From an uncultured Pseudomonadota bacterium (GTDB lineage Bacteria > Pseudomonadota > Gammaproteobacteria > Methylococcales > Methylomonadaceae): DNA of 37,407 bases. This document shows positions 4,953 through 37,178 of the stretch, one piece after another. Both the position numbers and the translations under genes were made by a program. Position 1 is the stretch's first letter. Each line of letters begins with the position of its first letter. The stretch is taken from positions 1 through 37,407 of the forward strand of contig CAIQZX010000161.1 of the NCBI GenBank assembly GCA_903876445.1, in the 5' to 3' direction. The notes under the pieces are model-generated. The model worked only from the letters and a program-made list of their open reading frames with translations, did no database searches and was not told the DNA's origin.

Positions 4953-5034
4953 TAAAAGCTCTTGCGTTGTAGGAATTTTAAAAAACATTTACTATTTCGC
5001 TCAAATTCATAAAAACTAGTTGGAGATGATAAAA

Positions 5035-5834: not shown

Positions 5835-6080
5835 AGTTTCGGCTTGATGACAATTACATTTAAAAAATTATAAGAAAAATATCATGAAATTATTTACCAT
5901 GCTTAATCGTTTAGAAATAGATTTTTTGCGTTTTCCTGAAACGCTACTAATACCAAATCATTCAACTTAACATTTTGATTACACCAAAAATTGCAGCCAT
6001 GTTTTTAACTAAACTACGGCATTTATCAAACGAAACAATATCGCTGTTTAAAAAACAGTTTAAAGTTGGGAGGACTTATT
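5835..6080. other. Intergenic region upstream of the second receptor gene
   Basis: AT-rich and with no strong terminator. It contains a 28-codon ATG ORF at 5884-5970 without a ribosome binding site, not considered a gene. It probably carries the promoter for the gene starting at 6081, but no convincing -35/-10 pair was singled out. Confidence 0.4.
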
Positions 6081-7562: not shown

Positions 7563-7682
7563 CAATAAATTATTGTACTCGGAAGCTATAAAAGTTCGAT
7601 AAATTCGAAAATTAACCGTTAAGATTTAGTGTTATCTATATCAGTGATTTGATAACTTTACAAAATGGAGTGTAATCACATC

Positions 7683-8558
7683 ATGTTAAATAATTTACGA
7701 GAAAGTGTTTCTAATTATTCATTAGGACAGAAACTTCGTGCTTGGGTAAAGCGCAGTACCCCTGTACTTGTAACGTTAGGTCTTTTGGTAACATTAACGT
7801 TCATCTTTTTTTTCAACCGCATTGTAATTACTGTTCATTCTGGAGAAGGCGGTATTTTATATAGACGTTTCACCTCTGGAACGGATACCGATTATATCTA
7901 CCCCGAAAAACTACATTTTATTTGGCCTTGGGACACAATGACCATTTATCAGGTGCGTACTCAAGCGGTTAACCATGAATTAGTTGTTTTGACAAACTTA
8001 GGTTTACCGATTACGTTAAAACTTTCGACACGATTTCACCCTGATTATGAAATGTTAGGTTTTTTGCATCAAAAAGTGGGACCTGATTATGTTAATCAAA
8101 TTGTCATTCCTCAAATAGAATCTGTTTTAAGAAAAAAGATTGGTGAATTAACCGCTGAGGATATTTATGCGAATAAAGAAGGCGTGCTTAATAAAATTAT
8201 GTGGGTAGCTGTTGAAGAAACGTCGCGTAATTACGTTGTTGTTGAAGATATTATTATCCGAACAATTGAATTGCCAGATGTAATTAAAAGCGCAATTGAA
8301 AACAAATTGGTTCAAGAACAAAAATTAGCGACGTATGAATTCATGTTGCAAATTGAAAAAAAGGAATCCGAACGAAAAGCAATTGAAGCCGATGGAATTA
8401 AATCCTATCAAGATATTATTTCTAAAACATTATCAGATAAACTCATTAAATGGCAAGGGGTTAATGCCACGCTGGAATTAGCTAAATCACCAAACTCGAA
8501 AGTGGTTGTTATTGGTGCAGGGAAAGAAGGAATGCCAATTATTTTGGGTAATGAATAA
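7683..8558 (+). CDS. Membrane-anchored SPFH/prohibitin-like protein
   Basis: About 291 residues from ATG 7683; an upstream in-frame ATG at 7665 overlaps the GGAG sequence (7667-7670) that probably serves as ribosome binding site, so the shorter start is preferred. One membrane segment at ~24-44 (PVLVTLGLLVTLTFIFFF) is followed by an SPFH-type fold (VITVHSGEGGILYRRF; VLTNLGLPITLKLSTRF; VVVEDIIIRTIELPDVIKSA), then a charged helix (QEQKLATYEFMLQIEKKESE, RKAIEADGIKSYQDIISKTL) typical of the stomatin/prohibitin coiled coil. SPFH proteins oligomerise into membrane scaffolds that organise proteases, channels and transporters. It lies between a receptor gene and an ABC exporter gene. Confidence 0.85.
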   Translation: MLNNLRESVSNYSLGQKLRAWVKRSTPVLVTLGLLVTLTFIFFFNRIVITVHSGEGGILYRRFTSGTDTDYIYPEKLHFIWPWDTMTIYQVRTQAVNHELVVLTNLGLPITLKLSTRFHPDYEMLGFLHQKVGPDYVNQIVIPQIESVLRKKIGELTAEDIYANKEGVLNKIMWVAVEETSRNYVVVEDIIIRTIELPDVIKSAIENKLVQEQKLATYEFMLQIEKKESERKAIEADGIKSYQDIISKTLSDKLIKWQGVNATLELAKSPNSKVVVIGAGKEGMPIILGNE

Positions 8559-20366: not shown

Positions 20367-20389
20367 GATAGTTTTAATTAAGTGCTTAT

Positions 20390-20755
20390 TTAACTTACTG
20401 TGTGAAATTCCCCACCCAGAGCTGATGGGATTGGGTGGGGATGGATAGCACTCTTCTGGCGAAGCCGCTTTTGATTTTCTGTGTTCATATTGTAGAATCT
20501 CCATGTACTTGCATTTGTGGTCATCGAAAGCCAACAGACTATAAATGCGTAAAAAGTAAATCTATTTGCAATCTCAAAAAATTGGGATTGTGTAACCCCA
20601 TTTGAGGCGGCAGGTTCTGTCGTGACTGTAAAGCTTTCCCCAGTGTCTGACGAGTCAAAGCTCGTGATAATGCGAAAGATACTGATGAAAATATCAGTAC
20701 GGGTCGGTCGAAGCCAATACTTAGAACGCGATAGCGTTTAGTGGGGGTATTTCAC
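20390..20755 (+). mobile_element. IS200/IS605-like mini-element (PATE/MITE type), copy 1
   Basis: A 366-bp element highly similar to the copy at 23270-23635, with constant offset 2880. A TTTAAC motif (20389-20394) overlaps the left end. The left part has the hairpin CCCCACCCA (20410-20418) / TGGGTGGGG (20432-20440). The middle reads on the + strand CICGHRKP...SICNLKKLG and then stops, resembling the decayed zinc-ribbon tail of a TnpB protein (inference). The right part has consecutive small hairpins, ACGAG/CTCGT and TACTGAT/ATCAGTA. The right end GATAGCGTTTAGTGGGGGTA plus TTTCAC is shared with copy 2, but here the left arm of the terminal hairpin is mutated. No complete transposase gene is present. 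Confidence 0.65.
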
Positions 20756-23266: not shown

Positions 23267-23269
23267 AAT

Positions 23270-23635
23270 TTAACTGACCGTGCGGAATTGTCCATCCAAG
23301 CCTACCGGCTCTGGGTGGGGATGGATAGCACTCTTCTGGCGAAGCCGCTTTTGGTTTTCTGTGTTCATATTGTAGAATCTCCATGTACTTGCATTTGTGG
23401 TCATCGAAAGCCAAGAGGCTATAAATCCGTAAAAGGTAAATCTATTTGCAATCTCAAAAAATTGGGATTATGTAACCCCATTTGAAACGGCAGGTTCTGT
23501 CGTGACTGTAAAGCGTTCCCCAGTGTCTACACGAGTCAAAGCTCGTGATACTGCGAAAGATACCGATGAAAATATCAGTACGGGGCGGTCGGAGTCCCCA
23601 CTATAACGCGATAGCGTTTAGTGGGGGTATTTCAC
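23270..23635 (+). mobile_element. IS200/IS605-like mini-element (PATE/MITE type), copy 2
   Basis: The second 366-bp copy, same orientation as 20390-20755. A TTTAAC motif (23269-23274) is again at the left end. The region from ~23312 rightward is nearly identical to copy 1, while the first 40 bp are more diverged. The right-end palindrome is intact here: CCCCACTA (23596-23603) / TAGTGGGG (23619-23626) with an inner AACGC/GCGTT, ending GTATTTCAC. The hairpin CACGAG/CTCGTG near 23531 is conserved. It separates ispB from the biosynthetic cluster, and with copy 1 it brackets ubiG-phosphatase-ispB as 2880-bp-spaced direct repeats. Confidence 0.68.
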
Positions 23636-23668: not shown

Positions 23669-25816
23669 TTAGTTTGCGACAAATTCTAATTCTAAATGAC
23701 GAGTTAAATGAATGAGTTTTATGTGAAATGAACCGTCGTGTTGATTTTGAATTGGTGCAGGATATGCTAACTTATATTGCGGTTGTTGAGCTGTTAATAC
23801 ACTGAACGCATCATGGAATTGCTGCACAGTTTTTTTATTTCCAACATTGATTGAATAATGCCAAATGTTATCGTTCTGAAATAAATAATTCATCGCCAAA
23901 TGCTTTTGATATGGCATTTGCGTCATTAGCAAATTTTCACCTGCTGGCAATATGTTGGAAATGGGACGAACAATGTCGAATAATTCTAACATCAATAATT
24001 GATCATCAACTTGTAACCACAAGCACAAAATCTCGACAGCAGCATTTACCCGTTTTCGAAATCCCGCTGACACCGAAAACCGCAATTCTTTTTTTAATAT
24101 AACGTTTTTTTTAAGCATCAAACTCAATCTTTCCAGCCATTTTGGTAAATTCTCCATCACAATATCTAAAGGCTCACAAATTTCAAAACCGATATGACTT
24201 AATTTGTAATTATGATTCGTTAGCATTTCAGGAATCGGATAATCATGAAAAAAATTATTTAATACTTGTTCGATATTTATAGATTGAATTTCTATTAAAG
24301 CGTGATGTACTTTTTGAAAATCAAAATATAAAACATCAGATAAAATTTTTTCATCTGTAATTTGTTTTGCTTTTAATAATATGGCATAGCGAGCGAATAA
24401 TGTTATTTCGTTCTGATTCTGCAAGGCTTGATAATTTATTTTTCCACTAGATAAAAGTGGAAATTCGTTGAGTATCCAAATTTCATCTGGCACAGCATAT
24501 TTGGGTAATACATTTTTACAGTCGGAACGAATTTGTGCTGTTTCAATAAGCGAATTAGGTTTTAAAATGCAAAAAGCAATGAGTTTTTGCCCTTGAATGT
24601 TTTCGGATTTTTCGGTAATGACAGCAACTTGTGAAATATAAGCCAACTTTTCAATCAGTCTTTCTATTTCAGCCAGCACTATTAAATAACCGCTACGATT
24701 TACGCTGTTATCAGCACGCCCTACTATGGCGATAGAATTATCATCATGGCAAGTAGCCATATCACCCATACGTTGCCATTCTTCCGCTCGGCTCAACCAA
24801 GTTCCCGACTCATCGATATACCCCTCAAAAGAATAGCGATGTTTACAATAAAGATTCCCATCTTTTTCAATTCGCAATGCCACATTATTCATTGGCTGAC
24901 CAATGCTTGTTACACGCAATTCTAATAAATCGTCTGACAAACATGCCGCGATTGGTCCCATTTCGGTACTGCCATATTGATTCACTAATCGATTTCCACA
25001 CAATGGATCAAAAGCACGAAATAAATCCTCTTTAATTCGCTGACCAGAAACAACAACTATTTTATAAGGGCGCGGATTTTTTCGTCCTTGTAACAACATT
25101 TCACACAGAGTTGGCGTAATAAATGTGACCGTTGGATTAAAGCGACGTTCTCTGTCCAAGTATTTGAGTAAATTGGTATTTTCTTGTAAATCTATCGAAG
25201 CACCTAACAAAATCGCCGGTAAAAATTCTGCACCAAAACCGTAAAGATGAAAAATAGGAACAGGAATAGCAAAGCGATCTTCGGTTGTGAATTGATATTT
25301 TTCAATGATGTTTTTTGCGCTACCCAACAAATTTTCATGGCTGTGTACGACAATTTTTGCAGCGCCCATACTGCCAGAAGTGCGTAAAAATAATTTTCCA
25401 TGCGTTTCTAAGCGTAGCACCTCGGCATTATGAGATTCCACTTTTAAAAACGAAGCTGGATTTTGTAACGCATCCACTGCATTAAATTTTGGAACAGATT
25501 TAATTATCAATCGGTATTGGCAAAATTGTGGTACGGGTTTTAACTCTGAAATTCCGTCTTTTTTTTCTGACGGAGGAAGTAAAACAAAGCCTTGTTGTTT
25601 TTTTAACAATAACATTAAAACCAAAGCACTTGGAACAGAGTTAAGACATTCAACAGCTACACAATCACTCTCTTGAACACCTTGTTCTCTTAAATAGTCG
25701 TCAAGAATTGATAGCAACGTTGGGATTTCAGCATAATGACAGGTTAATAATCCATCCGTTAAAAAGTTCTCATTTGCGGTAGTTGTGATATGAGTAAGAT
25801 TTTCTGCAAAATTCAT
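23669..25816 (-). CDS. AMP-forming acyl/aminoacyl ligase with unknown C-terminal domain
   Basis: A 715-residue protein. Residues ~1-470 form an ANL-superfamily adenylation enzyme: P-loop LRTSGSMGAAKIVVHSH (~145), FHLYGFGAEFLP, YGSTEMGPIA, GDMATCHDDNSIAIVGRADN and the A10-type Lys in LLSSGKINYQAL (~455). Residues ~470-715 are not recognised and look globular (FDFQKVHHALIEIQ; HDGSFHIKLIHLTRHLELEF). The enzyme probably activates a carboxylic or amino acid and loads it on a carrier protein; the free ACP at 33043 is a candidate partner. The start overlaps the stop of the condensation-domain gene by 4 nt (ATGA), so the two are translationally coupled. It is the last gene of the cluster. Confidence 0.85.
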   Translation of the reverse strand: MNFAENLTHITTTANENFLTDGLLTCHYAEIPTLLSILDDYLREQGVQESDCVAVECLNSVPSALVLMLLLKKQQGFVLLPPSEKKDGISELKPVPQFCQYRLIIKSVPKFNAVDALQNPASFLKVESHNAEVLRLETHGKLFLRTSGSMGAAKIVVHSHENLLGSAKNIIEKYQFTTEDRFAIPVPIFHLYGFGAEFLPAILLGASIDLQENTNLLKYLDRERRFNPTVTFITPTLCEMLLQGRKNPRPYKIVVVSGQRIKEDLFRAFDPLCGNRLVNQYGSTEMGPIAACLSDDLLELRVTSIGQPMNNVALRIEKDGNLYCKHRYSFEGYIDESGTWLSRAEEWQRMGDMATCHDDNSIAIVGRADNSVNRSGYLIVLAEIERLIEKLAYISQVAVITEKSENIQGQKLIAFCILKPNSLIETAQIRSDCKNVLPKYAVPDEIWILNEFPLLSSGKINYQALQNQNEITLFARYAILLKAKQITDEKILSDVLYFDFQKVHHALIEIQSINIEQVLNNFFHDYPIPEMLTNHNYKLSHIGFEICEPLDIVMENLPKWLERLSLMLKKNVILKKELRFSVSAGFRKRVNAAVEILCLWLQVDDQLLMLELFDIVRPISNILPAGENLLMTQMPYQKHLAMNYLFQNDNIWHYSINVGNKKTVQQFHDAFSVLTAQQPQYKLAYPAPIQNQHDGSFHIKLIHLTRHLELEFVAN

Positions 25817-27360
25817 AAATTATTGAGTGTTTGGGAAGGATTAGATACCATTGCTGTTAAAATTTGCTGAAATGACAAAATCATTGATTTAACAGTTTTT
25901 TCAGCAATAAAATCACGCTTATATTGCCAGCATCCAATAAGTATTTCACCTTCATCCGTTATTCGCGTCCAAAATGTAGGATATAAATCAGGAAACATAA
26001 AAGCACCATGTACCTTTTCCATAAACGTGACTTGCATATTATCCAGCGACAAAATGTCATGTTTATTAAGCTCACCTAAAAAACTAAAAACTGATCTGAA
26101 TAACGGTGTATTGCGCGGTTTTTCTGGAAATAAAAAAGGAGAAATACTTAAAAAAGGAATAGATTGTTGCTCCGTTGCCAATAAAAAAATTTCACGAGCT
26201 TGCTTTATTAGACTGACAATATCTAAATTATTAGAAAAATCAAAACGTAACGCTAAAACATTCAATAATGAGCCAATGACCGGCTCTAATTTCCAATGAT
26301 TACGATTAGCAAAAGTTGTCCCTAAAACAATATCTTCGTAACCACTATGACGTTTTAAAACTAATGCGTAAGCCACCAAAATTGTGTTAAAAAATGTCAC
26401 ACTTGTTTGCTGACTAAGTGCTTTTAAAGCTGATGTTAATTCAGGAGATATTTCGCACCAACAAGTTCCCGCTTCAAATGTCGCAGCGGGTTCATTTTTT
26501 CCAGCAATAGCGAAAGTAATTTGTGGCGGTTCGCCCCGTTTAAACCATTCTTGCCAATAAGCTAAACGCGGTTGCAAAGCGGATTCAGACAATAATGCTC
26601 TTTGCCAATTTACACAATCAACGTATTGCATTGGCAATGCAAGTAATGAACAAGGTTGTTTTGTCACTAAAGCGTGGTAATGCTCCTTGAGTTCATACAG
26701 TAAAGCTCGTAACGCGCCCATATCAAATAAAACATTATGAACACAAAGTAAAAGTACCGCCTCATTTTGTGAAAATTGCAGCAATCGTACGCGCAAACTC
26801 GATTCATTCGCTAAATCAAATGGCGTGTGACATTCAATATCGATGTGTTTTTGCAAAATTGCCGCGCGATTACTTAAATTATCAACATGAATCACTGTTA
26901 TGTTTGCAACCGTTTTTTGTGGTTCATAAGGTGTAATAATTTGCTGTAAATTCCCCGCTTCGTTTTTCAACGTAGTACGCAAAAAATCGTGGCGTTCAAT
27001 AATGCGATTGAAACTTTCTGTTAATAATTCAACGTTCAATTCACCGTCTAACTGAAAACCAAACGGCACGTTGTAATAACACGTTGAGGGATTACGCAAC
27101 TGCAAACTACCAAAATGTTGTTGGGAAAAACTTGGCGGAATTACGTCACCTTTTAAAAAAGGCAAATTTTGTTTTGATGAATAAACGCCAGCTTTATTTA
27201 AACGCGCCATTATTTCTGGTTTGACTGCTTGCAAACGTTGCCGTAATTCAATTGTTAAAGCATTTTCAGGTGCATTAAATCGTAACTTTTCATCCTCCAA
27301 CCATAATTTAATGTCAGCGCGGTCTAAATCGACTAACAACGTTTCGATTTCGGCATTCAT
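25813..27360 (-). CDS. NRPS condensation-domain protein with TubC-type docking domain, degenerate active site
   Basis: A 515-residue protein. Residues 1-58 match the TubC N-terminal docking domain (ETLLVDLDRADIKLWLEDEK; LRQRLQAVKPEIMARL). From ~70 to the end is a condensation domain (PPSFSQQHFGSLQLRNPSTC; HDFLRTTLKNEAG; GTTFANRNHWKLEPVIGSLL). The catalytic HHxxxDG motif reads H208-N-V-L-F-D213-M: the second, catalytic His is Asn and the Gly is Met. It may therefore be inactive, structural, or catalyse a non-canonical reaction. It is stand-alone, without adenylation or carrier domain. The start overlaps the stop of the A-MT-T gene by 1 nt (TAATG); the docking domain suggests it meets an upstream NRPS partner. 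Confidence 0.88.
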   Translation of the reverse strand: MNAEIETLLVDLDRADIKLWLEDEKLRFNAPENALTIELRQRLQAVKPEIMARLNKAGVYSSKQNLPFLKGDVIPPSFSQQHFGSLQLRNPSTCYYNVPFGFQLDGELNVELLTESFNRIIERHDFLRTTLKNEAGNLQQIITPYEPQKTVANITVIHVDNLSNRAAILQKHIDIECHTPFDLANESSLRVRLLQFSQNEAVLLLCVHNVLFDMGALRALLYELKEHYHALVTKQPCSLLALPMQYVDCVNWQRALLSESALQPRLAYWQEWFKRGEPPQITFAIAGKNEPAATFEAGTCWCEISPELTSALKALSQQTSVTFFNTILVAYALVLKRHSGYEDIVLGTTFANRNHWKLEPVIGSLLNVLALRFDFSNNLDIVSLIKQAREIFLLATEQQSIPFLSISPFLFPEKPRNTPLFRSVFSFLGELNKHDILSLDNMQVTFMEKVHGAFMFPDLYPTFWTRITDEGEILIGCWQYKRDFIAEKTVKSMILSFQQILTAMVSNPSQTLNNL

Positions 27361-30300
27361 TAAATTTCGCCTTCTTCGCGCTCTTCAAATCTGGTGAACA
27401 CGGAATTTTTTTCTAACTCCGGATATAAATTCACTAAATATGGCGCAAAGCTAGAAATTGTTGAAGCGTTAAATACGCCTAACGCCGGAATATCTCGCCC
27501 AAATAAACGTTGTAATCGACCTGCCATCATCATGGCTTTTAATGAATTGCCACCTAATGCGAAAAAATCATCCTCAACACCAATATGTTTTAAATCCAGC
27601 ACATCCACCCACACATCGGCTAATAATTTTTCAAATGGATTATTATGGGCTTCAACTGAAATTTCATCGCGCACAAAATCGAAATCTATTGGCAATTCGG
27701 CTAACGCTTTGCGATCAATTTTACCCGACGGTGATAAAGGCATTTCATCCACCAGCGTAAAAATAGTGGGAATCATATATTCAGGTAATTGTGTTTTGAG
27801 TGCCTGACGCAATTGTGGAATTAACTGTCGATTTAATTTGGTGTGCTGCTGATTATTCGCGTAATTTGTCAGTGTGCGATTTGGTGTTGTAGTTGTAAAT
27901 GTTGCCAATTGTTGTGGCAAATCATCGCGCGTAAATACGGCATCGTAACTCCCATTCAAATCGCTATTTAACCAACTGAGTTCTACGCGATAACCTAACG
28001 GTTGCGCTAATTGACGTATATTTTCAGGTTCGACACCGATGCCAGTATATTTCGCAACATAATCCCGACATTCAGAAATCAGCGCGTCAGAATGTGCGTT
28101 ATGCAACCAATTTAAGGCACAAACATCTGAACTTAAACGCGCATTTGGAATGTTACGCACCGCTAAAAACGGCGGCTTTTTACTCAGTAATTTTCCAATT
28201 TCAATGAAGTTTTGCCATTCAATTGAACTCAAATTTTGTAAAACTGGTTCAGAATTTCCAAAATGTAACACTACGTCTTGGCGGAATAAAGTCAATTGAT
28301 TGTGTGAATGCCCCGATTTAGGTTCGACTTGAACATGAGATAATTTTGGCATGTGATGCGTTAACGCAAGGAAAAAAGCGGGCGAAAACTGCAAATCTTT
28401 TTCAGCATCCATTTGCTGATGTATTCGCTGCCAAACTTGCGCCACCGTATCATTATCGGTTGCGCGATAAATGGATACCGATGAATGAAACGTTTCACGT
28501 TGAAGAAAATTCGGTACGTCGCCAACAAAAATACGCCCACCTTCTTTAAGTAAACGCTCTGCCCCTTGCAAAACTTTTAGTAAATACGCAACGTCCGGAA
28601 AATGCTGAATAACAGAGTTGATAATAATAGTGTCAAAACTCCCCTCAGCGAAATCCGCCAAATCATCTGCGGCGCGTTCCAGCAAAGTGATATTGTCCAA
28701 TCCATCGATTTTTTTTTGTATGGTGCGAATATGTTCTAAGCCCGTTGCTGAAATATCTGCGCCAACATAATGTTCACAATGTGGTGCGATACGCGACAAT
28801 AATAAACCCGTTCCACAACCGAGTTCTAAAACATTTTGTGGCTTTAAAGCGAGTATTTTATCAACTGTTTGTTCAACCCATTCCCGCATTTCAGCTTCAG
28901 GAATTGGCTGGTTTGTGTAAGTGCTGTTCCAACCATTGATATTAAAATTTAAATCGGCGGCAGTAGCGATGGATGTTTGCCGATAAGTTTCTTCATACAA
29001 CGATTGCCATAATGAAACATACTTTTTGGCATCATCAGCTTGTGCTTCAGCAATGGCTTCTGGATTAGCGACGATATAAGAAACCAATTGTTTGTCACCA
29101 AATTTGTCTTCGTATACTAAAACGACGGCTTGTTTAACGGTTGATTGTTCGATTAACGCCGTTTCAATTTCGCCTAATTCAATGCGGAAACCATGCAATT
29201 TAATTTGAGTATCAATACGTCCAATATATTCAATTTCGCCATCGGGTAAATATCGCGCTAAATCGCCGGTGCGATATAAACGCCCTTCCGAAAATGGGTT
29301 TGGAATGAATTTTTCAGTCGTTAATTCTGGGCGATTATGATAACCACGCCCGACTTGAACGCCGCCAATGTGCAATTCACCAGCCACACCAATAGCGGTT
29401 GGTTGTCCTTGCGAATCTAAAATATAAAGTTGAGTATTTGCAACGGGGCGACCAATTGGAACAACGTTTAATTTGCTGTTAGCCTTGCATTGCCAATAAC
29501 TGACATCAATTGCCGCTTCGGTAGGTCCATATAAATTATGTAATTCCGCTGATGTTTGTGCGAAAAAACGTTGTTGTAATGAATAAGGCAAAACCTCACC
29601 GCTACAAATCACTCGTCGAATGGAAGTGCAATGCGATAAATCAGCGGTTTCCAACAAAATATGCAGCATAGATGGCACAAAATGCAAAGTTGTGATTTGC
29701 TGCTCTTTAATAATTTTGATGAGGTAATTCGGATCTTTATGTCCTTCAGGTTTAGCGATGACTAAACACGCGCCAGAAATTAACGTCCAAAAAAATTCCC
29801 AGACAGACACATCAAAACTAAATGGCGTTTTTTGTAATATACGATCCGATGAATTTAATTGATAAGTCGCTTGCATCCACAATAAACGATTACAAATACC
29901 ACGATGTTCATTCAACGCACCTTTTGGTTTGCCAGTCGAACCCGATGTATAAATCATGTAGGCTAAATTATTAGGCGTAACATTTAATTCAGGATTTGAA
30001 TAACTAAATTGAGCAATCGTTGTCCAATCACTGTCGAGGTAAATAGTTTTTGTGTTAAAAAGCGGTAAATGTGCAACCAAATTTTGCTGAGTTAATAGCA
30101 CGTCAACGTTTGCATCTTCCATCATAAAAGCCAAACGCTCTTCAGGATAACTGGAATCAAGCGGAATATAAGCACCACCCGCTTTAATGATTCCTAAAAT
30201 ACCAATCACCATTTCTAACGACCGCTCGACACAAATACCCACTAACGAATCCGCTTTTACACCTAAAGATTGCAAATAACGAGCAAGCTGATTCGCGCGA

Positions 30301-30494
30301 TTATTTAATTCACGATAAGTAAGTTGTTGCTGATTAAAAATCACCGCAATCGCATCGGGACTACGTTCAACTTGTTCATCGATTAACTGATGTAGACATT
30401 TATGGCGTGGATAATCTGATTCTGTTGCATTCCAATCAAATAAAATTTTTTTGCGTTCTATATCAGTTAAAGGTTTTTGCGCTAACGTATTCAT
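27360..30494 (-). CDS. NRPS module A-MT-T, predicted serine-activating, no condensation domain
   Basis: A 1044-residue protein. Adenylation core: TYRELNNRANQLARYLQSLG, YTSGSTGKPKGAL, PFSFDVSVWEFFW, YGPTEAAIDVSYW, YRTGDLARYLPDGEIEYIGR (A7/A8 near 431). A SAM methyltransferase (LELGCGTGLLLSRIAP, ~553) is inserted between A8 and the A10 Lys (SPSGKIDRKAL, ~918), the known place for NRPS N-/C-methylation domains. A thiolation domain ends the protein (DDFFALGGNSLKAMM, Ser ~983). Reading the ten specificity positions by eye gives D-V-W-H-I-S-L-I-D-K, which matches serine codes. The absence of an N-terminal C domain makes it a loading or stand-alone module. Its starter would be a (methyl)seryl thioester. 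Confidence 0.93.
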   Translation of the reverse strand: MNTLAQKPLTDIERKKILFDWNATESDYPRHKCLHQLIDEQVERSPDAIAVIFNQQQLTYRELNNRANQLARYLQSLGVKADSLVGICVERSLEMVIGILGIIKAGGAYIPLDSSYPEERLAFMMEDANVDVLLTQQNLVAHLPLFNTKTIYLDSDWTTIAQFSYSNPELNVTPNNLAYMIYTSGSTGKPKGALNEHRGICNRLLWMQATYQLNSSDRILQKTPFSFDVSVWEFFWTLISGACLVIAKPEGHKDPNYLIKIIKEQQITTLHFVPSMLHILLETADLSHCTSIRRVICSGEVLPYSLQQRFFAQTSAELHNLYGPTEAAIDVSYWQCKANSKLNVVPIGRPVANTQLYILDSQGQPTAIGVAGELHIGGVQVGRGYHNRPELTTEKFIPNPFSEGRLYRTGDLARYLPDGEIEYIGRIDTQIKLHGFRIELGEIETALIEQSTVKQAVVLVYEDKFGDKQLVSYIVANPEAIAEAQADDAKKYVSLWQSLYEETYRQTSIATAADLNFNINGWNSTYTNQPIPEAEMREWVEQTVDKILALKPQNVLELGCGTGLLLSRIAPHCEHYVGADISATGLEHIRTIQKKIDGLDNITLLERAADDLADFAEGSFDTIIINSVIQHFPDVAYLLKVLQGAERLLKEGGRIFVGDVPNFLQRETFHSSVSIYRATDNDTVAQVWQRIHQQMDAEKDLQFSPAFFLALTHHMPKLSHVQVEPKSGHSHNQLTLFRQDVVLHFGNSEPVLQNLSSIEWQNFIEIGKLLSKKPPFLAVRNIPNARLSSDVCALNWLHNAHSDALISECRDYVAKYTGIGVEPENIRQLAQPLGYRVELSWLNSDLNGSYDAVFTRDDLPQQLATFTTTTPNRTLTNYANNQQHTKLNRQLIPQLRQALKTQLPEYMIPTIFTLVDEMPLSPSGKIDRKALAELPIDFDFVRDEISVEAHNNPFEKLLADVWVDVLDLKHIGVEDDFFALGGNSLKAMMMAGRLQRLFGRDIPALGVFNASTISSFAPYLVNLYPELEKNSVFTRFEEREEGEI

Positions 30495-30514
30495 GGTGTT
30501 GATCTTTAAATAAT

Positions 30515-31135
30515 TTATTTGAAATTAAACATTCGCTCGTAAACCCAAACCTGTAAATTTACGTCGGGGTGCGCTTTAAATCGACCGTGAAATGGCTCTG
30601 TGACAGCCACAAATTTCCAATGTCCTTGCTTTTCTAACGCATCCATTTTCGATTTAAAATCTGTGTTGTCATAAAATTCAGGACGCAAAGTAAAAATAAT
30701 ATGTCCATTTGGTTTGGTGATTCGCAATAATTCATCAAAAGCATTACTGCGAACGTGTGCCATTACAAACACACCAATGATAATAATTGCGTCAAAAGTA
30801 GCATCCGGAAAATCTAAAGTTTCGCCTAATACTTGTTGGTGTAATTTGTTGTAACATTTTTTGAAAGTTGCTTGCTGCAACATTCCTGTCGATAAATCTA
30901 AACCCTCTAAATTAGAGTAGCCGTGTTCAGCTAATAATTGTCCAACTAATCCCGTGCCACAACCCGCATCTAAAATTCTCGCGTCCGATGCAACATATTT
31001 TGCAAGTTCAGCAACCGCTTCACTTGGTCCTCCATGACCAACTAAATCATTTTCATAAGTGGCTGCCCACTTGTCATAATTCATGGCTAATTCAGCATTA
31101 TTTGTCGCTGCAAAAACAGCGTCAACATTACTCAT
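30515..31135 (-). CDS. Class I SAM-dependent methyltransferase
   Basis: About 206 residues from ATG 31135 (MSNVDAVFAATNNAELAMNY); AAGGGA lies just upstream, which favours 31135 over the adjacent ATG 31138 and the longer frame from 31210. Motif I ARILDAGCGTGLVGQLLAEH, motif II region LEGLDLSTGML, and IIIIGVFVMAHVRSNAFDEL. The Methyltransf_11/25 fold also covers homologues named after the Williams-Beuren region. The substrate is likely a hydroxyl or carboxyl of the cluster product. It is 20 nt upstream of the NRPS gene and 19 nt downstream of the sulfotransferase gene, so probably one operon. Confidence 0.88.
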   Translation of the reverse strand: MSNVDAVFAATNNAELAMNYDKWAATYENDLVGHGGPSEAVAELAKYVASDARILDAGCGTGLVGQLLAEHGYSNLEGLDLSTGMLQQATFKKCYNKLHQQVLGETLDFPDATFDAIIIIGVFVMAHVRSNAFDELLRITKPNGHIIFTLRPEFYDNTDFKSKMDALEKQGHWKFVAVTEPFHGRFKAHPDVNLQVWVYERMFNFK

Positions 31136-31154
31136 CATATTTCCCTTTATTTGA

Positions 31155-31814
31155 TTATTCTGAAAATTTGTAACCGAATAATTGAATATCCGACTTAAAA
31201 TGCTCGGCAACTAAATTTTGCGTGTAATTGTTATAATAACTACGGTAATCGTCATGTTTACTTTTATTAAGGTGCGGTAATTTTTCTGAAATGACTAACT
31301 TTTGACAGATAAATTCAAAATCTTGATGCAAGGTTTCGTAACGCCCCACAAAATCCACTAATAAGTTACCATTCTCATCACAAAGCATTTGTTGTTGTAA
31401 TTTCGTAATGCCTTTAGGGTATGGAGTCGGCGTTTGAATCACCCATTCAATGAACGCTTCAAAAGAACCTAACGCTTTCACTTGTGAATAAGTGCTAGAA
31501 GTCGGTTCGCGTAAAATAAAGTGATACATCGAAACTTGTAAATCCCAAGGATTTCGCACAAAGGCAAATTTATAAAAAGCGTTAAATAATTCAGGCGCAA
31601 ACTCCTTTTGAGCATCGCTTGCTTTGGCGTGAAGCAATAAGGTTTTCCATACGTCATACATTTTATTTGGTTTGCTATCTATGATTTTAGCGGGACGCAG
31701 AATTTTAAATTTTTCAGGTTCTTGAGCGTAAGGTTCTAAAATGTTACGCATACTTATACCTCCCGTTTTGCCGGTATGAAAAAAAATAAAACGATGGCTA
31801 TTTGAAATCAACAT
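31155..31814 (-). CDS. PAPS-dependent sulfotransferase (Sulfotransfer_2-like)
   Basis: A 219-residue cytoplasmic enzyme. The 5'-phosphosulfate loop is FFHTGKTGGISMRNIL (compare HIPKTGGTS in the family) and the 3'-phosphate motif is FAFVRNPWDLQVSMYHFIL. A C-terminal part with RYETLHQDFEFICQKL follows the usual family order. It would sulfate a hydroxyl or amine of the cluster metabolite or of a carbohydrate. The start overlaps the end of the reductase gene by 17 nt, indicating tight coupling within the cluster. Confidence 0.87.
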   Translation of the reverse strand: MLISNSHRFIFFHTGKTGGISMRNILEPYAQEPEKFKILRPAKIIDSKPNKMYDVWKTLLLHAKASDAQKEFAPELFNAFYKFAFVRNPWDLQVSMYHFILREPTSSTYSQVKALGSFEAFIEWVIQTPTPYPKGITKLQQQMLCDENGNLLVDFVGRYETLHQDFEFICQKLVISEKLPHLNKSKHDDYRSYYNNYTQNLVAEHFKSDIQLFGYKFSE

Positions 31815-33039
31815 TTTGATTCTCTTTAAGAGGAGGTAAAAAACCCGTTTTTTGCCAATAAGAAACGTATTTTTTAATTAACTTTTCATCAATGTTTGGG
31901 CAAAAAATATCGCTGTTCGCTAAACCTAATTCAATATGACTTCCATCAAAAGGTGGACGGGAATGAAATAAATAATGTGAACCCGTAAAAACAACCATTA
32001 ACATGGCAAAAAAACGTTTACTATCGGTATCTTCCGGATTATCGGATGTTGCATAACGTCTTAATTCGTGACTCCACTTTTCCGAACTGACTTCGTTCAT
32101 GACATAACCGATATTATTCAAAATTATCATTAGATTGCGCCACTCGATGGGTGTAGGATTAAAAAGGTGAAAAGCCCTTCCCCAATTGTCTTCTTGTTTC
32201 GCTAAATGCACCATCGTGCTACTAACATAATTAACAGGAACCAACGTGATTGCAATATCCCATGCAGGATAAATCCCCATTTTAATACAGCCTTTTAGTA
32301 ACCGTGGCAATAACTCACTATTATCATTCAATGCACCTGTTTTACTACAGCCCATAATGCGAACAGGGCGATAAATACAAGCGGGCAAACCTCGAGTTTG
32401 AGCGTTTGCAACTAATCTATCAGCGACCCATTTACTTTTACCATAATCTGCTTTTAAGCTGGAATGAAAAAGTGGAATCGTGTTTTCGTACAAAATTTCA
32501 GTAGCAAAATGCGCGTCACTATAAAAAACCGCAATACTCGAAACAAAATAAAAAGGCTTTGTTTGCACTAAACTCGCTAAACGCAAACTATTTTCAACAC
32601 CTGTTACATTGATTGGTTTAAGCCGCTCGTAAGGATAAAGCAAATTTATCCGGCCGGCACTGTGGTAAATTACGTCAATCGTGCTGGCTAAATGACAAAA
32701 CTCGCTATCCGTTAAACCAAAGAAAGGTTTAATCAAATCACCAACAATGGGTACAACCCGACTTTCAAATTTTTCTTGCCATAAATTATACGATTCTAAA
32801 TGCTGAACAAGTCTTTGTTTCGCGGCTTGAATATCATCCGCTCGCACTAAACAATAAATAACAGCATCTGTTTTTTGTAATAACTCTTCAAGCAAAAAGC
32901 CGCCAACCAATCCTGTTGCGCCAATTAAAAGTATATTCTTAGGATTGAGAGCGTATTTTGATAATGGATTTTTGAATTGAATTTCATGATTTAAAGTCGC
33001 TTCGTGTTCAAAATAGGTAGGATTATTTTCAAATTTCAT
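31798..33039 (-). CDS. Thioester-reductase-like SDR (NAD-binding_4)
   Basis: A 413-residue extended SDR of the Lys2/carboxylic-acid-reductase R-domain or fatty-acyl-reductase type. NAD(P) motif LIGATGLVGGFLLEELL, CLVRADDIQAAKQRL, GDLIKPFFGL, IYHSAGRINLLYPYERLKPI, FYFVSSIAVF, and catalytic Y-x3-K in DYGKSKWVADRLV. The family releases carrier-bound acyl thioesters reductively as aldehydes or alcohols. It directly follows the ACP gene (3-nt gap), suggesting that it off-loads the ACP-bound chain. It is the probable release enzyme of the cluster, since no thioesterase is encoded. Confidence 0.88.
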   Translation of the reverse strand: MKFENNPTYFEHEATLNHEIQFKNPLSKYALNPKNILLIGATGLVGGFLLEELLQKTDAVIYCLVRADDIQAAKQRLVQHLESYNLWQEKFESRVVPIVGDLIKPFFGLTDSEFCHLASTIDVIYHSAGRINLLYPYERLKPINVTGVENSLRLASLVQTKPFYFVSSIAVFYSDAHFATEILYENTIPLFHSSLKADYGKSKWVADRLVANAQTRGLPACIYRPVRIMGCSKTGALNDNSELLPRLLKGCIKMGIYPAWDIAITLVPVNYVSSTMVHLAKQEDNWGRAFHLFNPTPIEWRNLMIILNNIGYVMNEVSSEKWSHELRRYATSDNPEDTDSKRFFAMLMVVFTGSHYLFHSRPPFDGSHIELGLANSDIFCPNIDEKLIKKYVSYWQKTGFLPPLKENQNVDFK

Positions 33040-33042
33040 TGA

Positions 33043-33342
33043 CTAAACAGAGCTGTTTTTATGAACAATAAACGCCGCCAACGTTTGTAAGTTAGCAAAA
33101 GCATCCATGCTTAAATCGTTTTCTGCAAAAACAAAACCAAAGTTTTTTTCTAGCAAGATAATAAACTCAACTACCATAATCGAATCCAAGCCTAATTCAT
33201 CTTCTAAAATTAACGCATTGGAATCAATTTCTTCCAATTTAAGATTCGGATTGATTTTAGAAACCAGCAATTGTTTTAACTGGTCAATCACATCGGCGAC
33301 ATGAGGAGCTAAAAAGTCAGACGGAGTAAGGTGGTCAATCAT
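33043..33342 (-). CDS. Stand-alone acyl/peptidyl carrier protein
   Basis: A 99-residue carrier protein. The phosphopantetheine site is GLDSIMVVEFI with Ser54; the protein is acidic and predicted helical (VADVIDQLKQLLVSKINPNL; DLSMDAFANLQTLAAFIVHK), slightly longer than AcpP. It is 3 nt upstream of the reductase gene and 10 nt downstream of the antiporter gene. It is likely the docking point for the chain loaded by the adenylating ligase at 23669-25816 and released by the reductase. A housekeeping AcpP role is unlikely in this context. Confidence 0.9.
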   Translation of the reverse strand: MIDHLTPSDFLAPHVADVIDQLKQLLVSKINPNLKLEEIDSNALILEDELGLDSIMVVEFIILLEKNFGFVFAENDLSMDAFANLQTLAAFIVHKNSSV

Positions 33343-33352
33343 GTTTAATTAT

Positions 33353-34552
33353 TTATTTCGATTTTAAAATAAGAGATTTCATACGGTTTAACATCGGCGA
33401 AACCATTGGGATAGTCAACATTGTACTGCCAATTGCCATCAATAATAACGCAGTAAAGGCTTCATTCGTAATGATATTTTTGTCTAACAAGATATTCACA
33501 AAAATGATCATAATCAATGCTTTTGTTTGCAATAACCAACCAATAATAGAGGCTTCTCCAGGTTGCCATTTTAAAATTTTACCCGCAATTTGAAGACCTA
33601 ATAATTTACCCGTAACGGAAACGACTAATAAAATACCGGCGACTAAAAAGACGGCAGCCCCACCCATTTGCCAATTTGTTTTTAATCCCGTACTCAAGAA
33701 AAAAACCGGCATAACGGCTAAAAGAATATGGTGACGTAATAAATCCATATGTTCTTGATGAAACCACTCTGAATCAAGAATAACACCAGAAAGAAACGCA
33801 CCCACCATAAAATGCAAGCCCGCCCAATCGGCGGCAAACCCGCAAAATGCCAACCACATCAAACCAATATACCAACGATCTTTGGGCGGAAGCCAAGCCA
33901 TCAATTTTCGAATTGCATAAGCAGAAATAGCATAGCCAACAAAGAAAAATCCTTGATGTCCTAAGCGTTCCCAATCCATTAGAATCAGTGCTAATACACC
34001 CCAAATAGCAATATCATCTAAACTGGCATAACGCAGAATTCGCTGTCCAATCGGTTTTCTTAGAATATCTAACTTTTCCATAAATAGGATAAGTATAGGG
34101 AGCGCAGTTACCGCACACGCCATTCCTATTCCGACGACAAATTGCCATGTTTGCCCCGCTGCTCCCATCCACCCTGGATATTGAACTAAGAATACAGCCG
34201 CAAAACTGCCGAATGCTAAGGGTGTTCCCAACGCAAACCCAGCTGTAATGCTACTTTCAACTCGATTTTCCCATGCTTTTTGGATATTGAGTTCAATCCC
34301 CGCTATCCAAACAAAAATCATCACCGCCCACCAAGCGATACCATTTAACGAACCGATAACAGGTTTACTAAAAACGAAATTATAAAAGTCAGGATAAACC
34401 GCTCCTAAAACCCCCGGTCCTAATAAAATACCGCAAATTATCTGAACAACCACTAAAGGGGCGTAATAATCCGTTCTTCCAACACGCCAGATTAAATATG
34501 GCACAGTGAAAATAATAGACATAGCGATTAAAAAAATTTCGGTTGTACTCAT
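33353..34552 (-). CDS. CPA2-type cation/proton antiporter
   Basis: A 399-residue inner-membrane protein with about 12 hydrophobic segments and no soluble regulatory (TrkA-N) domain. Features typical of CPA2 (Kef/NapA-like) antiporters are VVVQIICGILLGPGVLGAVY in the first third and paired Asp residues in a membrane helix, ASLDDIAIWGVLALIL (~178). It would exchange Na+ or K+ for H+. It sits 10 nt from the ACP gene inside the cluster, unusual for a housekeeping antiporter, and may give self-protection or export-coupled ion balance; this is inference. Confidence 0.87.
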   Translation of the reverse strand: MSTTEIFLIAMSIIFTVPYLIWRVGRTDYYAPLVVVQIICGILLGPGVLGAVYPDFYNFVFSKPVIGSLNGIAWWAVMIFVWIAGIELNIQKAWENRVESSITAGFALGTPLAFGSFAAVFLVQYPGWMGAAGQTWQFVVGIGMACAVTALPILILFMEKLDILRKPIGQRILRYASLDDIAIWGVLALILMDWERLGHQGFFFVGYAISAYAIRKLMAWLPPKDRWYIGLMWLAFCGFAADWAGLHFMVGAFLSGVILDSEWFHQEHMDLLRHHILLAVMPVFFLSTGLKTNWQMGGAAVFLVAGILLVVSVTGKLLGLQIAGKILKWQPGEASIIGWLLQTKALIMIIFVNILLDKNIITNEAFTALLLMAIGSTMLTIPMVSPMLNRMKSLILKSK

Positions 34553-34571
34553 GATATTACTCAGTTAAACA

Positions 34572-34610
34572 GTTTAGTTAGACTAAACAACACATTGGTT
34601 GTTTAGTCTA
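34572..34610 (-). promoter_or_regulatory. Mutually exclusive hairpins between the GST and antiporter genes
   Basis: A perfect 13-bp stem TAGACTAAACAAC (34579-34591) / GTTGTTTAGTCTA (34598-34610) has a 6-nt loop. Next to it, a third segment GTTTAGTTAGACTAAAC (34572-34588) can form an alternative 6-7 bp hairpin that uses one of the same arms. Neither is followed by a U-run. On the - strand the pair lies between the GST stop (34626) and the antiporter start (34552), so it looks like an attenuator, terminator or protein-binding operator for the operon below. Confidence 0.5.
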
Positions 34611-34625
34611 GTAACAAAAATTGTG

Positions 34626-35273
34626 TTATTTTTTCATTAAATTAGCCATTGCAATGGCTCGATCAGCTGCCACTTTTTGTGCGCTTGAACGATTTTCAAC
34701 GGCTTTGTTGTAAGATTCAATTTCTGGAATGGCTTGAGCGACCATATCTACACCATAAATTTTTTGCGTAGCGATACCGACCATTGATAAATGTAACCAC
34801 GCAACGCAATCAGCGGCAGTAAAAGTATCACCTAAAATGAAAGGTGAAAATTTTGTTAATCTCACCAAGCCTTTTAAGCTAATTTCCAAACGATCTTTAA
34901 CTTCCGCTTTTGTTTCGTCAGAGGCAGAACCCCCGAAGAAAACTTCTTTGTACAAACGACGGGCGTGTAACTCAATGTTAAGTTCCAAATGTTGAATCAA
35001 CTCACGACATTTTGCACGTTCATAAATATCAACAGGATAAAGTGGATTGTTAGGATATTGCTCTTCCAAATACTCTAAAATCACTTGTGATTCAGATAAA
35101 CAACCGTGTTCCGTTTCGATAAAAGGAATTTTGCCAAGCGGGGAACGTTTTAATAAAGATTCATCTTGTGATGGAACGACAAATTCTTCAGAAAATTCAA
35201 TTCCTTTTTCGAGCAAAACTAATTTTGTTTTGTTGTAATAATTACTAACTGCAAAGCCACATAATTTAATCAT
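34626..35273 (-). CDS. Glutathione S-transferase
   Basis: A 215-residue cytoplasmic GST. The N-terminal thioredoxin-like domain (MIKLCGFAVSNYYNKTKLVL; SPLGKIPFIETEHGCLSESQ with cis-Pro and the glutathione gamma-Glu contact ES) is followed by the all-helical domain (SPFILGDTFTAADCVAWLHL with the N-cap/hydrophobic-staple motif). GSTs conjugate or add glutathione to electrophiles. In a biosynthetic cluster it could act as a maleylacetoacetate-isomerase-like tailoring enzyme or as detoxification. It is flanked on both sides by hairpins, so it may be transcribed separately. Confidence 0.9.
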   Translation of the reverse strand: MIKLCGFAVSNYYNKTKLVLLEKGIEFSEEFVVPSQDESLLKRSPLGKIPFIETEHGCLSESQVILEYLEEQYPNNPLYPVDIYERAKCRELIQHLELNIELHARRLYKEVFFGGSASDETKAEVKDRLEISLKGLVRLTKFSPFILGDTFTAADCVAWLHLSMVGIATQKIYGVDMVAQAIPEIESYNKAVENRSSAQKVAADRAIAMANLMKK

Positions 35274-35300
35274 TGTGAATCCTCATAAAATAAAAATCTC

Positions 35301-35340
35301 AAAAAAAAACCTGACCAACCTTTGAAATCAGTCAGGTTTT
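35301..35340 (-). terminator. Strong Rho-independent terminator after the flavoprotein gene
   Basis: On the - strand, AAAACCTGAC (35331-35340) pairs with GTCAGGTTTT (35306-35315), followed by a run of nine T's down to 35301. It lies 20 nt beyond the stop of the flavoprotein gene and upstream of the GST start. Confidence 0.85.
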
Positions 35341-35360
35341 ACAACGAATAACCAATATAA

Positions 35361-37178
35361 CTACATATTGAGTAGTTCGTTCTGTACATCCGTTATTGGC
35401 GTGTCATAAATTAGCTCAATCGGCATAACTTGTTGACCGCCAACTGTTAAAGTACAGCGTTGTAAACCATGATTTTGAATGCGCGGATCATTTTTTTCCC
35501 AAGGAATAAAGCCACCACGATCTTCATTAGAACAAAAATGCTCTTCAGAATACACTGTATCCGTAACGTGAACCAAGCTATTGATGAAATTCAACAACAT
35601 ATTTCTTGGTTTTTCGTTTGCTAAATCACCATCAAGTAAATCAGCGGCTTCGTCAAAACGAACTACAACTGAACTGCGTGTATTTCCACCTTTTATAAAC
35701 TCCCCGTTTTCGTAATAACGGAACACGGGATGTAAAAACGCCGCTGAACCTGGACGTTCTGGATCGTTACGGCGAATGAAATTAAGTGAATCCTCAAATC
35801 CATTTTCAAAATTGTCAAAGCCTAATTCCAAAGTCAGAATAACGATTTTTTTATTCGTAAATTTTGATTGTGTCAATACATAAGCAACCGGCAATTCATA
35901 TAGTAATTCCGCTTTGCCATTTTCTAAAACCAACACATCACAAAGTGTGCCGAATAATTGATATAGTGCAGAAGTCGTGCTTAAACGAGTAACTAAATGA
36001 GAGCCTAATTTTCTTAAATCATCTTCATTACTCAACTCAAATTTATCAATTGGTAAAGGTATATCATGGTATTTAGATTCCAATAAACGGAACAGCGTTC
36101 GTACATTGTAACGGAAACCATGAATAAATCCCGAAGCGGATTTTTTATCACGCGCCGCCATATTCGTACCAATGAAATACATATCCGAAACACTACTTTC
36201 CCATGTTGAATTTAGCACTGGATACTTTTTCATTTTATCTACATCCGGCATAATGTCTGACGCGAACATATTTTGTTCAACATATCTGAAACCGGTACTG
36301 CGAATCACATGATCTACTTCAAACCAACCGTGTGCAGTACCTGGTGTATTCCAATGTGGCAATTCTTCGGTGTAATAAACTCTAATCGAACCATCTTCTT
36401 GTTTCACAAGTTTTGTAAGCGTCGAACCTGTGACACCGTGCATGGCTTTAAGTTGAAACATATCTAAAATGGTGTTATTAAAGGAACGCAAGTCTCCAAC
36501 AAAATGACTATTCCAAGCGTGTCGCAGAAGTCGATTTCCAATCATGATAAAAATAATCGCGGCATGACCTGCTAGATGATTGGCGGTTTCAAAAGCAGAA
36601 TTTCCCCGACCAAGAATAACGACTCTTTTGTTTTCGTAACGCTCTGGATGGTTTGCATCATGATCTTCATAACCCTCGGCTAATTCTATACCTTCAACTT
36701 CTGGGATATTTGGCTTTACTGGACCGGTTGCTAGTAATAATTTTTTACAATGGTATTGGTTCCCGTTGGCATCAGTAAGTACAAAATACTTACGCTCATC
36801 GGTATTGCGGGTAATATGTTTAATAGCTGTATTATATTGAATTTTCAAGCCAAATTTAATTGCAAAATCGTTAGCATAACGCACTAAATCGGTATTTTGA
36901 GGGTATAAATCTTTAGAATAATCTGTGAATAAATGTGAATTATCATAAGTAATCAATGAATTCCAATCGTGACGCAAATTAAAATCGGGTTCAGGAAACC
37001 AGTTATTGCGCTTATTTAGCGAAATCATAGTTCCATGACGCGGATAATGTTGAAAAAAAGAAGCAGCACTACCATTAGCTTCAAGAATTAGATAGTCACG
37101 CCCTGCTTGCTCCATAAAATAGCCCATTTGCAATCCAGCAGGCCCTGCACCGAGAATAATATATTCGTGATATTTCAT
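35361..37178 (-). CDS. FOXRED2-like FAD/NAD(P)-binding oxidoreductase
   Basis: A 605-residue flavoprotein. FAD Rossmann motif ILGAGPAGLQMGYFMEQAGR near the N-terminus, a second dinucleotide motif VVILGRGNSAFETANHLAGH (~190), and blocks HYPRHGTMISLNKRNNWF and FNLRHDWNSLITYDN that resemble the eukaryotic FOXRED2 protein. The C-terminal ~200 residues have no clear family assignment. Bacterial flavin monooxygenase-like proteins hydroxylate or oxidise amino acids or thiols. The residues around the start (MKYHEYIILGAG) fit the FAD fold directly, so the start is secure. No Shine-Dalgarno was seen; an upstream fragment ends 14 nt before. Confidence 0.85.
   Translation of the reverse strand: MKYHEYIILGAGPAGLQMGYFMEQAGRDYLILEANGSAASFFQHYPRHGTMISLNKRNNWFPEPDFNLRHDWNSLITYDNSHLFTDYSKDLYPQNTDLVRYANDFAIKFGLKIQYNTAIKHITRNTDERKYFVLTDANGNQYHCKKLLLATGPVKPNIPEVEGIELAEGYEDHDANHPERYENKRVVILGRGNSAFETANHLAGHAAIIFIMIGNRLLRHAWNSHFVGDLRSFNNTILDMFQLKAMHGVTGSTLTKLVKQEDGSIRVYYTEELPHWNTPGTAHGWFEVDHVIRSTGFRYVEQNMFASDIMPDVDKMKKYPVLNSTWESSVSDMYFIGTNMAARDKKSASGFIHGFRYNVRTLFRLLESKYHDIPLPIDKFELSNEDDLRKLGSHLVTRLSTTSALYQLFGTLCDVLVLENGKAELLYELPVAYVLTQSKFTNKKIVILTLELGFDNFENGFEDSLNFIRRNDPERPGSAAFLHPVFRYYENGEFIKGGNTRSSVVVRFDEAADLLDGDLANEKPRNMLLNFINSLVHVTDTVYSEEHFCSNEDRGGFIPWEKNDPRIQNHGLQRCTLTVGGQQVMPIELIYDTPITDVQNELLNM

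Follow-up and report, generated by a model that had tools for sequence, protein, structure and literature searches.

A putative gene system for the biosynthesis and transport of a small sulfated metabolite in a methane-oxidizing bacterium

The stretch of DNA analyzed here, called the window below, is the 37,407-base contig G000:C161 of an uncultured gammaproteobacterium, whose genome assembly (G000) holds 2.8 Mb in 223 contigs at an estimated completeness of about 96% and carries a pmoA-family gene (PF02461, 431 bits) that none of 14 control genomes matches. The organism is accordingly a probable methanotroph, most likely of the Methylococcales. Ten genes at 23669–37178, together with a P-type ATPase gene elsewhere in the window, probably enable this methane-oxidizing bacterium to make and transport a small sulfated specialized metabolite, one that would be serine-derived, methylated, reductively released, and exported; the substrates, bond formation, product, and transport are what we infer from the genes. 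For comparison we used 18 genomes of the genus, 237 of the family, 311 of the order, and a 120-genome sample of the phylum, and domains were assigned with Pfam and NCBIfam profiles against their cut-offs. The system, conserved but patchy, would offer a testable lead, and it contains three unusual parts: a stand-alone condensation protein without its catalytic histidine, a metal-pump-type P-type ATPase that lacks the CPx motif and is tied to biosynthetic genes, and a Pfam-less family of about 250 residues that we call VOCL.

All ten open reading frames (ORFs) lie on the minus strand between these coordinates, as the initial annotation of the sequence had stated. In operon order, they encode a FAD/NAD-dependent oxidoreductase (FAD), a glutathione S-transferase-like protein (GST), an antiporter, a free acyl carrier protein (ACP), a free-standing thioester reductase (TR), a sulfotransferase (ST), a stand-alone methyltransferase (MT), an adenylation protein with an inserted methyltransferase and a T domain (A-MT-T), a condensation protein (C), and an acyl-AMP ligase (LIG) whose ORF continues into VOCL. 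The gaps between them are 87, 73, 10, 3, −17, 19, 20, −1, and −4 nt when the MT start is taken at 31135; six of the nine are under 20 nt, one is exactly 20, and two are larger. Pfam and NCBIfam profiles likewise support the functions that had been assigned to A-MT-T, the ligase, the free ACP, TR, ST, MT, GST, and the antiporter.

A second species of the genus, G010 (isolate LJ-5-9m_bin-0986, contig CAISXF010000082.1, here G010:C82), has the ten genes in identical order at 76–93% identity; there, two ORFs stand for the ligase, and the second shares 61% identity with the C-terminal portion of the LIG ORF in the window. Between the two species, the ratio of nonsynonymous to synonymous substitution rates (dN/dS) is 0.04–0.18 for 16 of 16 genes, 11 in the cluster (LIG and VOCL counted apart) and five at a second locus described below, with some of the ratios rough because dS exceeds 1. 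Thus, all 16 genes tested are under purifying selection, and because G010 shares the gene order and all ten genes show ratios in this range, we conclude that the ten-gene arrangement is more than chance.

TR and VOCL are present in 2 of the 18 genomes of the genus, and related versions of the cluster occur in other genera of the order. G228 and G218 hold a core that runs ACP, TR, ST, MT, A-MT-T, C, LIG, VOCL, and P-type ATPase; in G230, the ATPase, VOCL, and LIG genes are divergent from ACP, TR, ST, MT, and A-MT-T, which reach the contig end; in G227, the parts are split over two contigs; and in G276, LIG with VOCL, the antiporter with TR, and the ATPase lie on three small contigs. The parts are rearranged in G285, a genome of another family, where the locus starts with an exporter set (ABC, HlyD, and an outer-membrane efflux protein) followed by A-MT-T, C, LIG, VOCL, and the ATPase, and continues with three genes, two FAD genes, an MFS gene, one further gene, the antiporter, ACP, TR, an alginate-export-like gene, ST, and MT. 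Reduced versions are found in genus g9 (G257, G258, and G259); the G259 locus has LIG, ACP, VOCL, ST, the ATPase, a radical-SAM gene, and two extra sulfotransferase genes, and no nonribosomal peptide synthetase (NRPS) gene was matched in it. TR itself matches 57 of the 311 order genomes at E ≤ 1e-40, the eight best at 459 bits at least and the next at 375 (G257). A scan of contig stretches for TR with two close sequences and two short peptide patterns had confirmed 1 of 100, the G010 record; later genome searches found others, so this count does not speak for absence elsewhere.

The initial annotation had placed the limits of the cluster at 23669–37178, and the system extends beyond them. The P-type ATPase gene at 10289–12499 (minus strand, 736 aa) belongs to it, because the eight genomes with the best ATPase matches are also the eight with the best TR matches (G000, G010, G218, G227, G228, G230, G276, and G285, of 311) and because the gene adjoins VOCL in five relatives (G228, G230, G218, G227, and G285). 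In the window, it lies 11.2 kb from the cluster with housekeeping genes between, and the G010 copy is on contig C86, apart from the cluster on C82. Altogether, 90 of the 311 order genomes match the ATPase at E ≤ 1e-60, the eight best at 803 bits at least and the next at 740 (G298). The protein is P1B-like and keeps DKTGT, TGE, and GDGIND in 13 of 13 aligned sequences. P1B heavy-metal ATPases typically carry a CPx motif in the helix that precedes the phosphorylation site; none of the 13 has one in the helix before DKTGT, nine read GCNY there, and in three an SPH or APH is found, but only far upstream. As a separate observation, G298 has three P-type ATPase matches of the GCNY kind, two of them on other contigs and one, of 714 aa, located after a 1713-aa ORF that matches A domains and TR, at locus L126 (G298:C150).

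The A-MT-T protein (27360–30494, minus strand, 1044 aa) combines an adenylation (A) domain (TIGR01733, 465.7 bits against a cut-off of 317.4), the inserted methyltransferase, a T domain (PF00550) reading GGNSLK in five of five aligned sequences, and a C-terminus reading REEGEI in six of six. Its A-domain code is DVWHISLID in the window, G010, G228, and G218 (four of five scored), and G227 has the same motifs. Serine A-domain codes are near DVWHLSLIDK, and the window domain is predicted to be of the serine type. Serine is not general to the system, since the G285 code is DLFNNALTY. In the G285 protein (L098, 1594–4728), residues 251–400 are 36% identical to those of the window, the methyltransferase insert is 62% identical, and the tail is kept, which suggests that its substrate-binding region has been exchanged. 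The best NCBIfam profile for A-MT-T is NRPS_SolG, at 661.4 bits far below the cut-off of 2200; in excerpts of PMC10204066, the SolG module is described as inserting serine on the grounds of labeling and prediction.

The C protein (25813–27360, minus strand, 515 aa), which had been annotated as a split domain, is a whole stand-alone protein of TubC_N (PF18563, 59.5 bits, cut-off 26) and condensation domain (PF00668, 199.2 bits). The REEGEI tail of A-MT-T is probably the docking partner of TubC_N, judging from these conserved ends, and docking domains of such a general kind have been published (PMC6195595 and PMC9113145). The HHxxxDG motif reads HNVLFDM in the window and G010, HILIYDQ in G228, G218, and G227, and HNVAFDT in G285; the second, catalytic histidine of canonical condensation domains is absent in six of six genomes, with the register confirmed by alignment to Txo1. 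The earlier proposal of a small sulfated and methylated serine-containing acyl aldehyde or alcohol agrees with the serine code, ACP, TR, ST, and the methylation genes, but an N-acyl-serine aldehyde or alcohol would need a working C, and we doubt that part of it because the catalytic histidine is absent from all six homologues.

ACP (33043–33342, minus strand, 99 aa) matches PF00550 at 31.8 bits and keeps GLDS in seven of seven sequences. As a candidate for loading its carriers, G000 has a single PF01648 match, a putative phosphopantetheinyl transferase in a 216-aa frame with WTRKEA, judged by eye to be of the Sfp type. TR (31798–33039, minus strand, 413 aa) is a thioester reductase by profile (TIGR01746, 283.8 bits, cut-off 213.35), aligns with the reductase domain of MxcG at 247.8 bits, and reads YGKSK in six of six sequences at the YxxxK motif of thioester reductases. 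ACP stands beside TR in all six loci where both are seen together (G000, G010, G230, G228, G218, and G285), and thus TR more likely acts on an ACP-bound chain.

By profile and motif, ST (31155–31814, minus strand, 219 aa) is predicted to be a sulfotransferase dependent on 3′-phosphoadenosine 5′-phosphosulfate (PAPS): it belongs to Sulfotransfer_2 (PF03567, 56.8 bits, cut-off 22), and the blocks K..G.S and VRNPWD..VSMYHFI, which we take to be PAPS-binding, are conserved in seven of seven sequences. A comparison of ST with solved structures gave no relative, only three matches at E 0.18 or worse. In G010, VOCL is followed by a gene that barely reaches the DHHA1 cut-off (26.0 against 25.9 bits) and by an adenosine 5′-phosphosulfate (APS) kinase gene (220 bits); these two could remove 3′-phosphoadenosine 5′-phosphate (PAP) and supply PAPS, and the sulfation reading is strengthened because the APS kinase gene is two genes downstream of the cluster. 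MT (30515–31135, minus strand) is a class I S-adenosylmethionine-dependent methyltransferase (PF08241, 64.1 bits). A start at the upstream TTG at 31210 looks too long, and because six homologues align from 31135 we corrected the start to that position.

LIG (24437–25816, minus strand) is the acyl-AMP ligase part of a 715-aa ORF and has PF00501 and PF13193. Its alignments to fatty-acid ligase profiles all stay below the cut-offs, and in a profile comparison with LgrA we read a tyrosine at the Asp235 position of amino-acid A domains. The rest of the ORF (23669–25816 in full) is VOCL, at 23669–24436; the two are fused in the window only and are separate ORFs in the other eight loci that have both, one of them partial. 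Relatives of VOCL occur in 12 of the 311 order genomes; the other 119 genomes of the phylum sample gave none. H81, E85, E151, H193, E249, and E251 are kept in 12 of 12, a pattern that recalls VOC metalloenzymes with no profile or model backing a VOC assignment, and VOCL may be a metalloenzyme. Searched against Pfam at E ≤ 1, the 12 members matched no VOC family; nine families appeared (the best 2OG-FeII_Oxy_2, 0.014), and we take these as chance because each came from a single member. The VOCL profile matched, among solved structures, short parts of yeast OST6 (best E 0.0056) and one more at E 2.1, which are of no bearing. Two genomes, G060 and G286, have a VOCL homologue near an AMP ligase unrelated to LIG.

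The following course of biosynthesis would be consistent with these parts. LIG would activate a carboxylic acid other than a standard α-amino acid and load it onto the free ACP, while A-MT-T would activate serine, methylate it, and hold it on the T domain. C would dock through TubC_N on the REEGEI tail and bring serine on the T domain together with the ACP-bound group, with serine presumably the donor, because of the docking logic and the adjacency of ACP and TR; without its catalytic histidine, C may condense the two in an unusual way or serve as a scaffold. TR would then release the ACP-bound chain as an aldehyde or alcohol, ST would contribute a sulfate group and MT another methyl group, and VOCL may make one additional modification. 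Handling of the product, or of what it does to the membrane, would fall to the P-type ATPase, possibly aided by an ABC exporter of the cyclic-peptide type, and FAD, GST, and the antiporter would serve as an accessory redox and protection unit.

These three accessory genes had been counted as cluster genes, and they do adjoin it in the window and G010. FAD (35361–37178, minus strand, 605 aa), which had been called FOXRED2-like, is the first gene of the operon; it matches the generic Pyr_redox_3 (PF13738, 124.5 bits), and its matches among solved structures, a flavin monooxygenase and YpdA first, fall within the N-terminal 210 residues or so. GST (34626–35273, minus strand, 215 aa) matches PF13417 at 62.5 bits. 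The antiporter (33353–34552, minus strand, 399 aa) is a CPA2-type Na+/H+ or K+/H+ antiporter without a KTN domain; it matches PF00999 only (93.2 bits) and falls short of the Kef type, with 70.2 bits on TIGR00932 against a cut-off of 238.3. GST stands beside FAD and the antiporter in G010, G227, and G218, and in G285 the FAD and antiporter genes are inside the cluster, with no GST match at that locus. FAD matches 26 of the 237 family genomes at E ≤ 0.001, strongly only in G000, G010, G218, G227, and G228; G230 has a 21-residue fragment at a contig end, and the next match, in G111, is 37% identical. The six family genomes with these matches down to the G230 fragment are those in which A-MT-T is seen, and G257 and G259 have VOCL without FAD. 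The three genes are a unit separable from the biosynthetic genes, as their positions in G227 and G218 show, though within the family FAD goes with the version that bears NRPS genes. They may be protective, for example against a reactive aldehyde. FAD homologues also occur as tandem pairs in loci L039, L041, and L079; the latter two have an MFS transporter gene close by.

In the window and G010, the ATPase gene sits with four genes, all on the plus strand of the window, that may belong to the system. They encode an ABC exporter of the cyclic-peptide (SyrD/PvdE) type (8627–10237; TIGR01194, 348.9 bits, cut-off 286.2), found at the same place in G010; an SPFH/Band 7 protein (7665–8558); a periplasmic binding protein (Peripla_BP_6, 6066–7562); and a DUF697 protein (5020–5574; PF05128). 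Homologues of the last three (about 40%, 28%, and about 59% identity) are beside the cluster in G218 and G227, divergent from its ACP-TR end. SPFH was ruled out as a marker of the system, as its homologues occur in 45 of the 311 order genomes, with 75% identity in the congeners G001 and G005, both without TR and VOCL matches. We list the four genes as tentative.

The window has some other features. A direct repeat of about 327 nt (20388–20713 and 23268–23594; 90% and 94% identity in its two blocks) flanks ubiG-gph-ispB on both sides; it stops 75 nt short of the 3′ end of the cluster and may mark a past rearrangement. In an ORF at 2129–4900 (plus strand), a periplasmic binding protein domain is joined to a channel domain of the MscS type, an unusual sensor/channel fusion, and a contig-end ORF at 3–2120 (plus strand) has a VDPVVP tandem repeat, long Ser/Thr/Ala-rich stretches, and no Pfam match. 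No tRNA was found in the window by ARAGORN, nor any Rfam match at the gathering threshold.

Three other explanations have to be set against a sulfated-metabolite system. The product could be a metallophore, with the ATPase moving a metal ion and the sulfate and reduced end acting as metal ligands or solubilizing groups. PvdE has a role in siderophore export, and the window's exporter resembles the PvdE/SyrD type; the ATPase passes the heavy-metal profile TIGR01525, and chelators such as methanobactin are known from methanotrophs (PMC3621798), and methylolanthanin from a methylotroph (PMC11317620). The loss of CPx before DKTGT in every aligned sequence argues against metal transport, and no TonB receptor or typical siderophore-ligand gene turned up among the annotated genes of the cluster region, where no dedicated search was made, so that we regard a metallophore as improbable. 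A sulfated envelope lipid or an anchored molecule, in place of a secreted metabolite, is in our view similarly improbable as the product; in that case LIG would load a fatty acid, TR would make an alcohol, and the ATPase would be a flippase. The sub-threshold likeness of LIG to fatty-acid ligases, its lack of an Asp235 equivalent, and the membrane functions of the nearby SPFH, MscS-fusion, and ATPase genes would agree with this, but its presence in only 2 of 18 congeners is unlike that of a basic envelope lipid. Finally, the degenerate HHxxxDG motif and the scattering or rearrangement of genes in some relatives might point to a decaying remnant in which the catalytic residue of C is lost and no product is made any longer; this is very improbable, as the ten genes have no stop codons, dN/dS is 0.13 for C and similarly low for the others, and the same histidine loss recurs in six genomes with the docking parts retained.

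Several points weigh against the biosynthesis and transport system that we favor. The joining step is unexplained because C is without its catalytic residue. The ATPase just passes TIGR01525 (351.5 bits, cut-off 346.25), the SPFH gene is widespread, and the antiporter has matches at E ≤ 1e-60 in 28 of the 311 order genomes, all eight cluster genomes included and 20 of them outside these. FAD, GST, and the antiporter lie together and apart from the NRPS genes in G227, and are likewise unlinked in G218, where FAD is cut by a contig end; in the window, 229 nt of contig remain upstream of the FAD start. TR is on a different contig from ACP in G259, and the APS kinase linkage is found at one locus, that of G010. 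AlphaFold models, two sequences each, have a mean pLDDT of 47.8 for VOCL and 33.4 for FAD. The genomes that share the genes are related, so the counts are not independent and show co-occurrence rather than a probability; the support as a whole consists of genes, conservation, co-occurrence, and motifs.

The history of the system shows a mixed pattern. For C, ST, TR, VOCL, and the ATPase, identity to the window is higher in G285, of another family, than in genus g36 of the same family (ST 73% versus 59–61%; C 52% versus 39–41%); the opposite holds for A-MT-T (50% versus 63–64%), and MT is level or lower (65% versus 65–73%). This hints at transfer between families with gene exchange. A plasmid-borne twin was sought and rejected: A-MT-T matched 2926 plasmid records; among the 15 matches listed, the best has 43.8% identity over 97%, and one record outside these falls in the 60–80% band. 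Related loci in G258 (L117/L118) and G293 (L123/L124) have several sulfotransferase homologues, TR, a P-type ATPase, a multiheme cytochrome/TPR protein, and a sulfatase-like gene (below the cut-off of an arylsulfatase profile in G258, judged by eye in G293); a sulfated precursor is possibly desulfated later there. We also raise, as a tentative and rather doubtful proposal, that methane-oxidizers of the order share an undescribed class of system with a core of acyl ligase, ACP, ST, free TR, VOCL as a new metal-binding-like enzyme family, and CPx-less P-type ATPase, with NRPS parts in some lineages only and the ATPase as a dedicated pump for an organic product, a role that to our knowledge is not known for the P1B-like class.

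Few specialized metabolites of methanotrophs have been characterized. One that is named in excerpts of PMC11964084 is tundrenone. A full-text literature search, in the excerpts it returned, gave no cluster with matching gene content, including none that combines a P-type ATPase, a sulfotransferase, and a thioester reductase. The ATPase shares DKTGT, TGE, GDGIND, and the TIGR01525 match with P1B heavy-metal ATPases and differs from them in the missing CPx and in its linkage to ST, TR, and NRPS genes. TR resembles the terminal reductases of NRPSs such as that of myxochelin, MxcG, but is a separate protein beside a free ACP rather than fused to an NRPS and does not reach the MxcG cut-off of 2300. 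The loci of G060 and G286 that we label aryl-polyene-like (G286 is not profile-annotated) share the VOCL homologue, with an AMP ligase close by that has about 22% identity to LIG, and the G060 locus differs in having ketosynthase, lipid A acyltransferase-type, and halogenase-like genes. Sulfazecin is sulfonated on its β-lactam nitrogen. Sulfated NRPS products of the bulgecin and sulfazecin type combine NRPS parts with a sulfotransferase in a proteobacterium, as here, but bulgecin needs a glycosyltransferase, according to excerpts of PMC5472815, and no glycosyltransferase family matched in the ten genes. Solanimycin of Dickeya solani, whose SolG gives the best profile for A-MT-T, has a single serine module, a stand-alone carrier, and a discussed non-canonical C motif; it differs in being a polyketide synthase/NRPS product with Gly-(Dha)5, in a SolG motif, HHxxDDx, that keeps both histidines, and in that no sulfotransferase or P-type ATPase is named in the excerpts of PMC10204066. 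From these comparisons, we conclude that the system is an orphan that resembles NRPS-like clusters in kind and matches none of those tested here.

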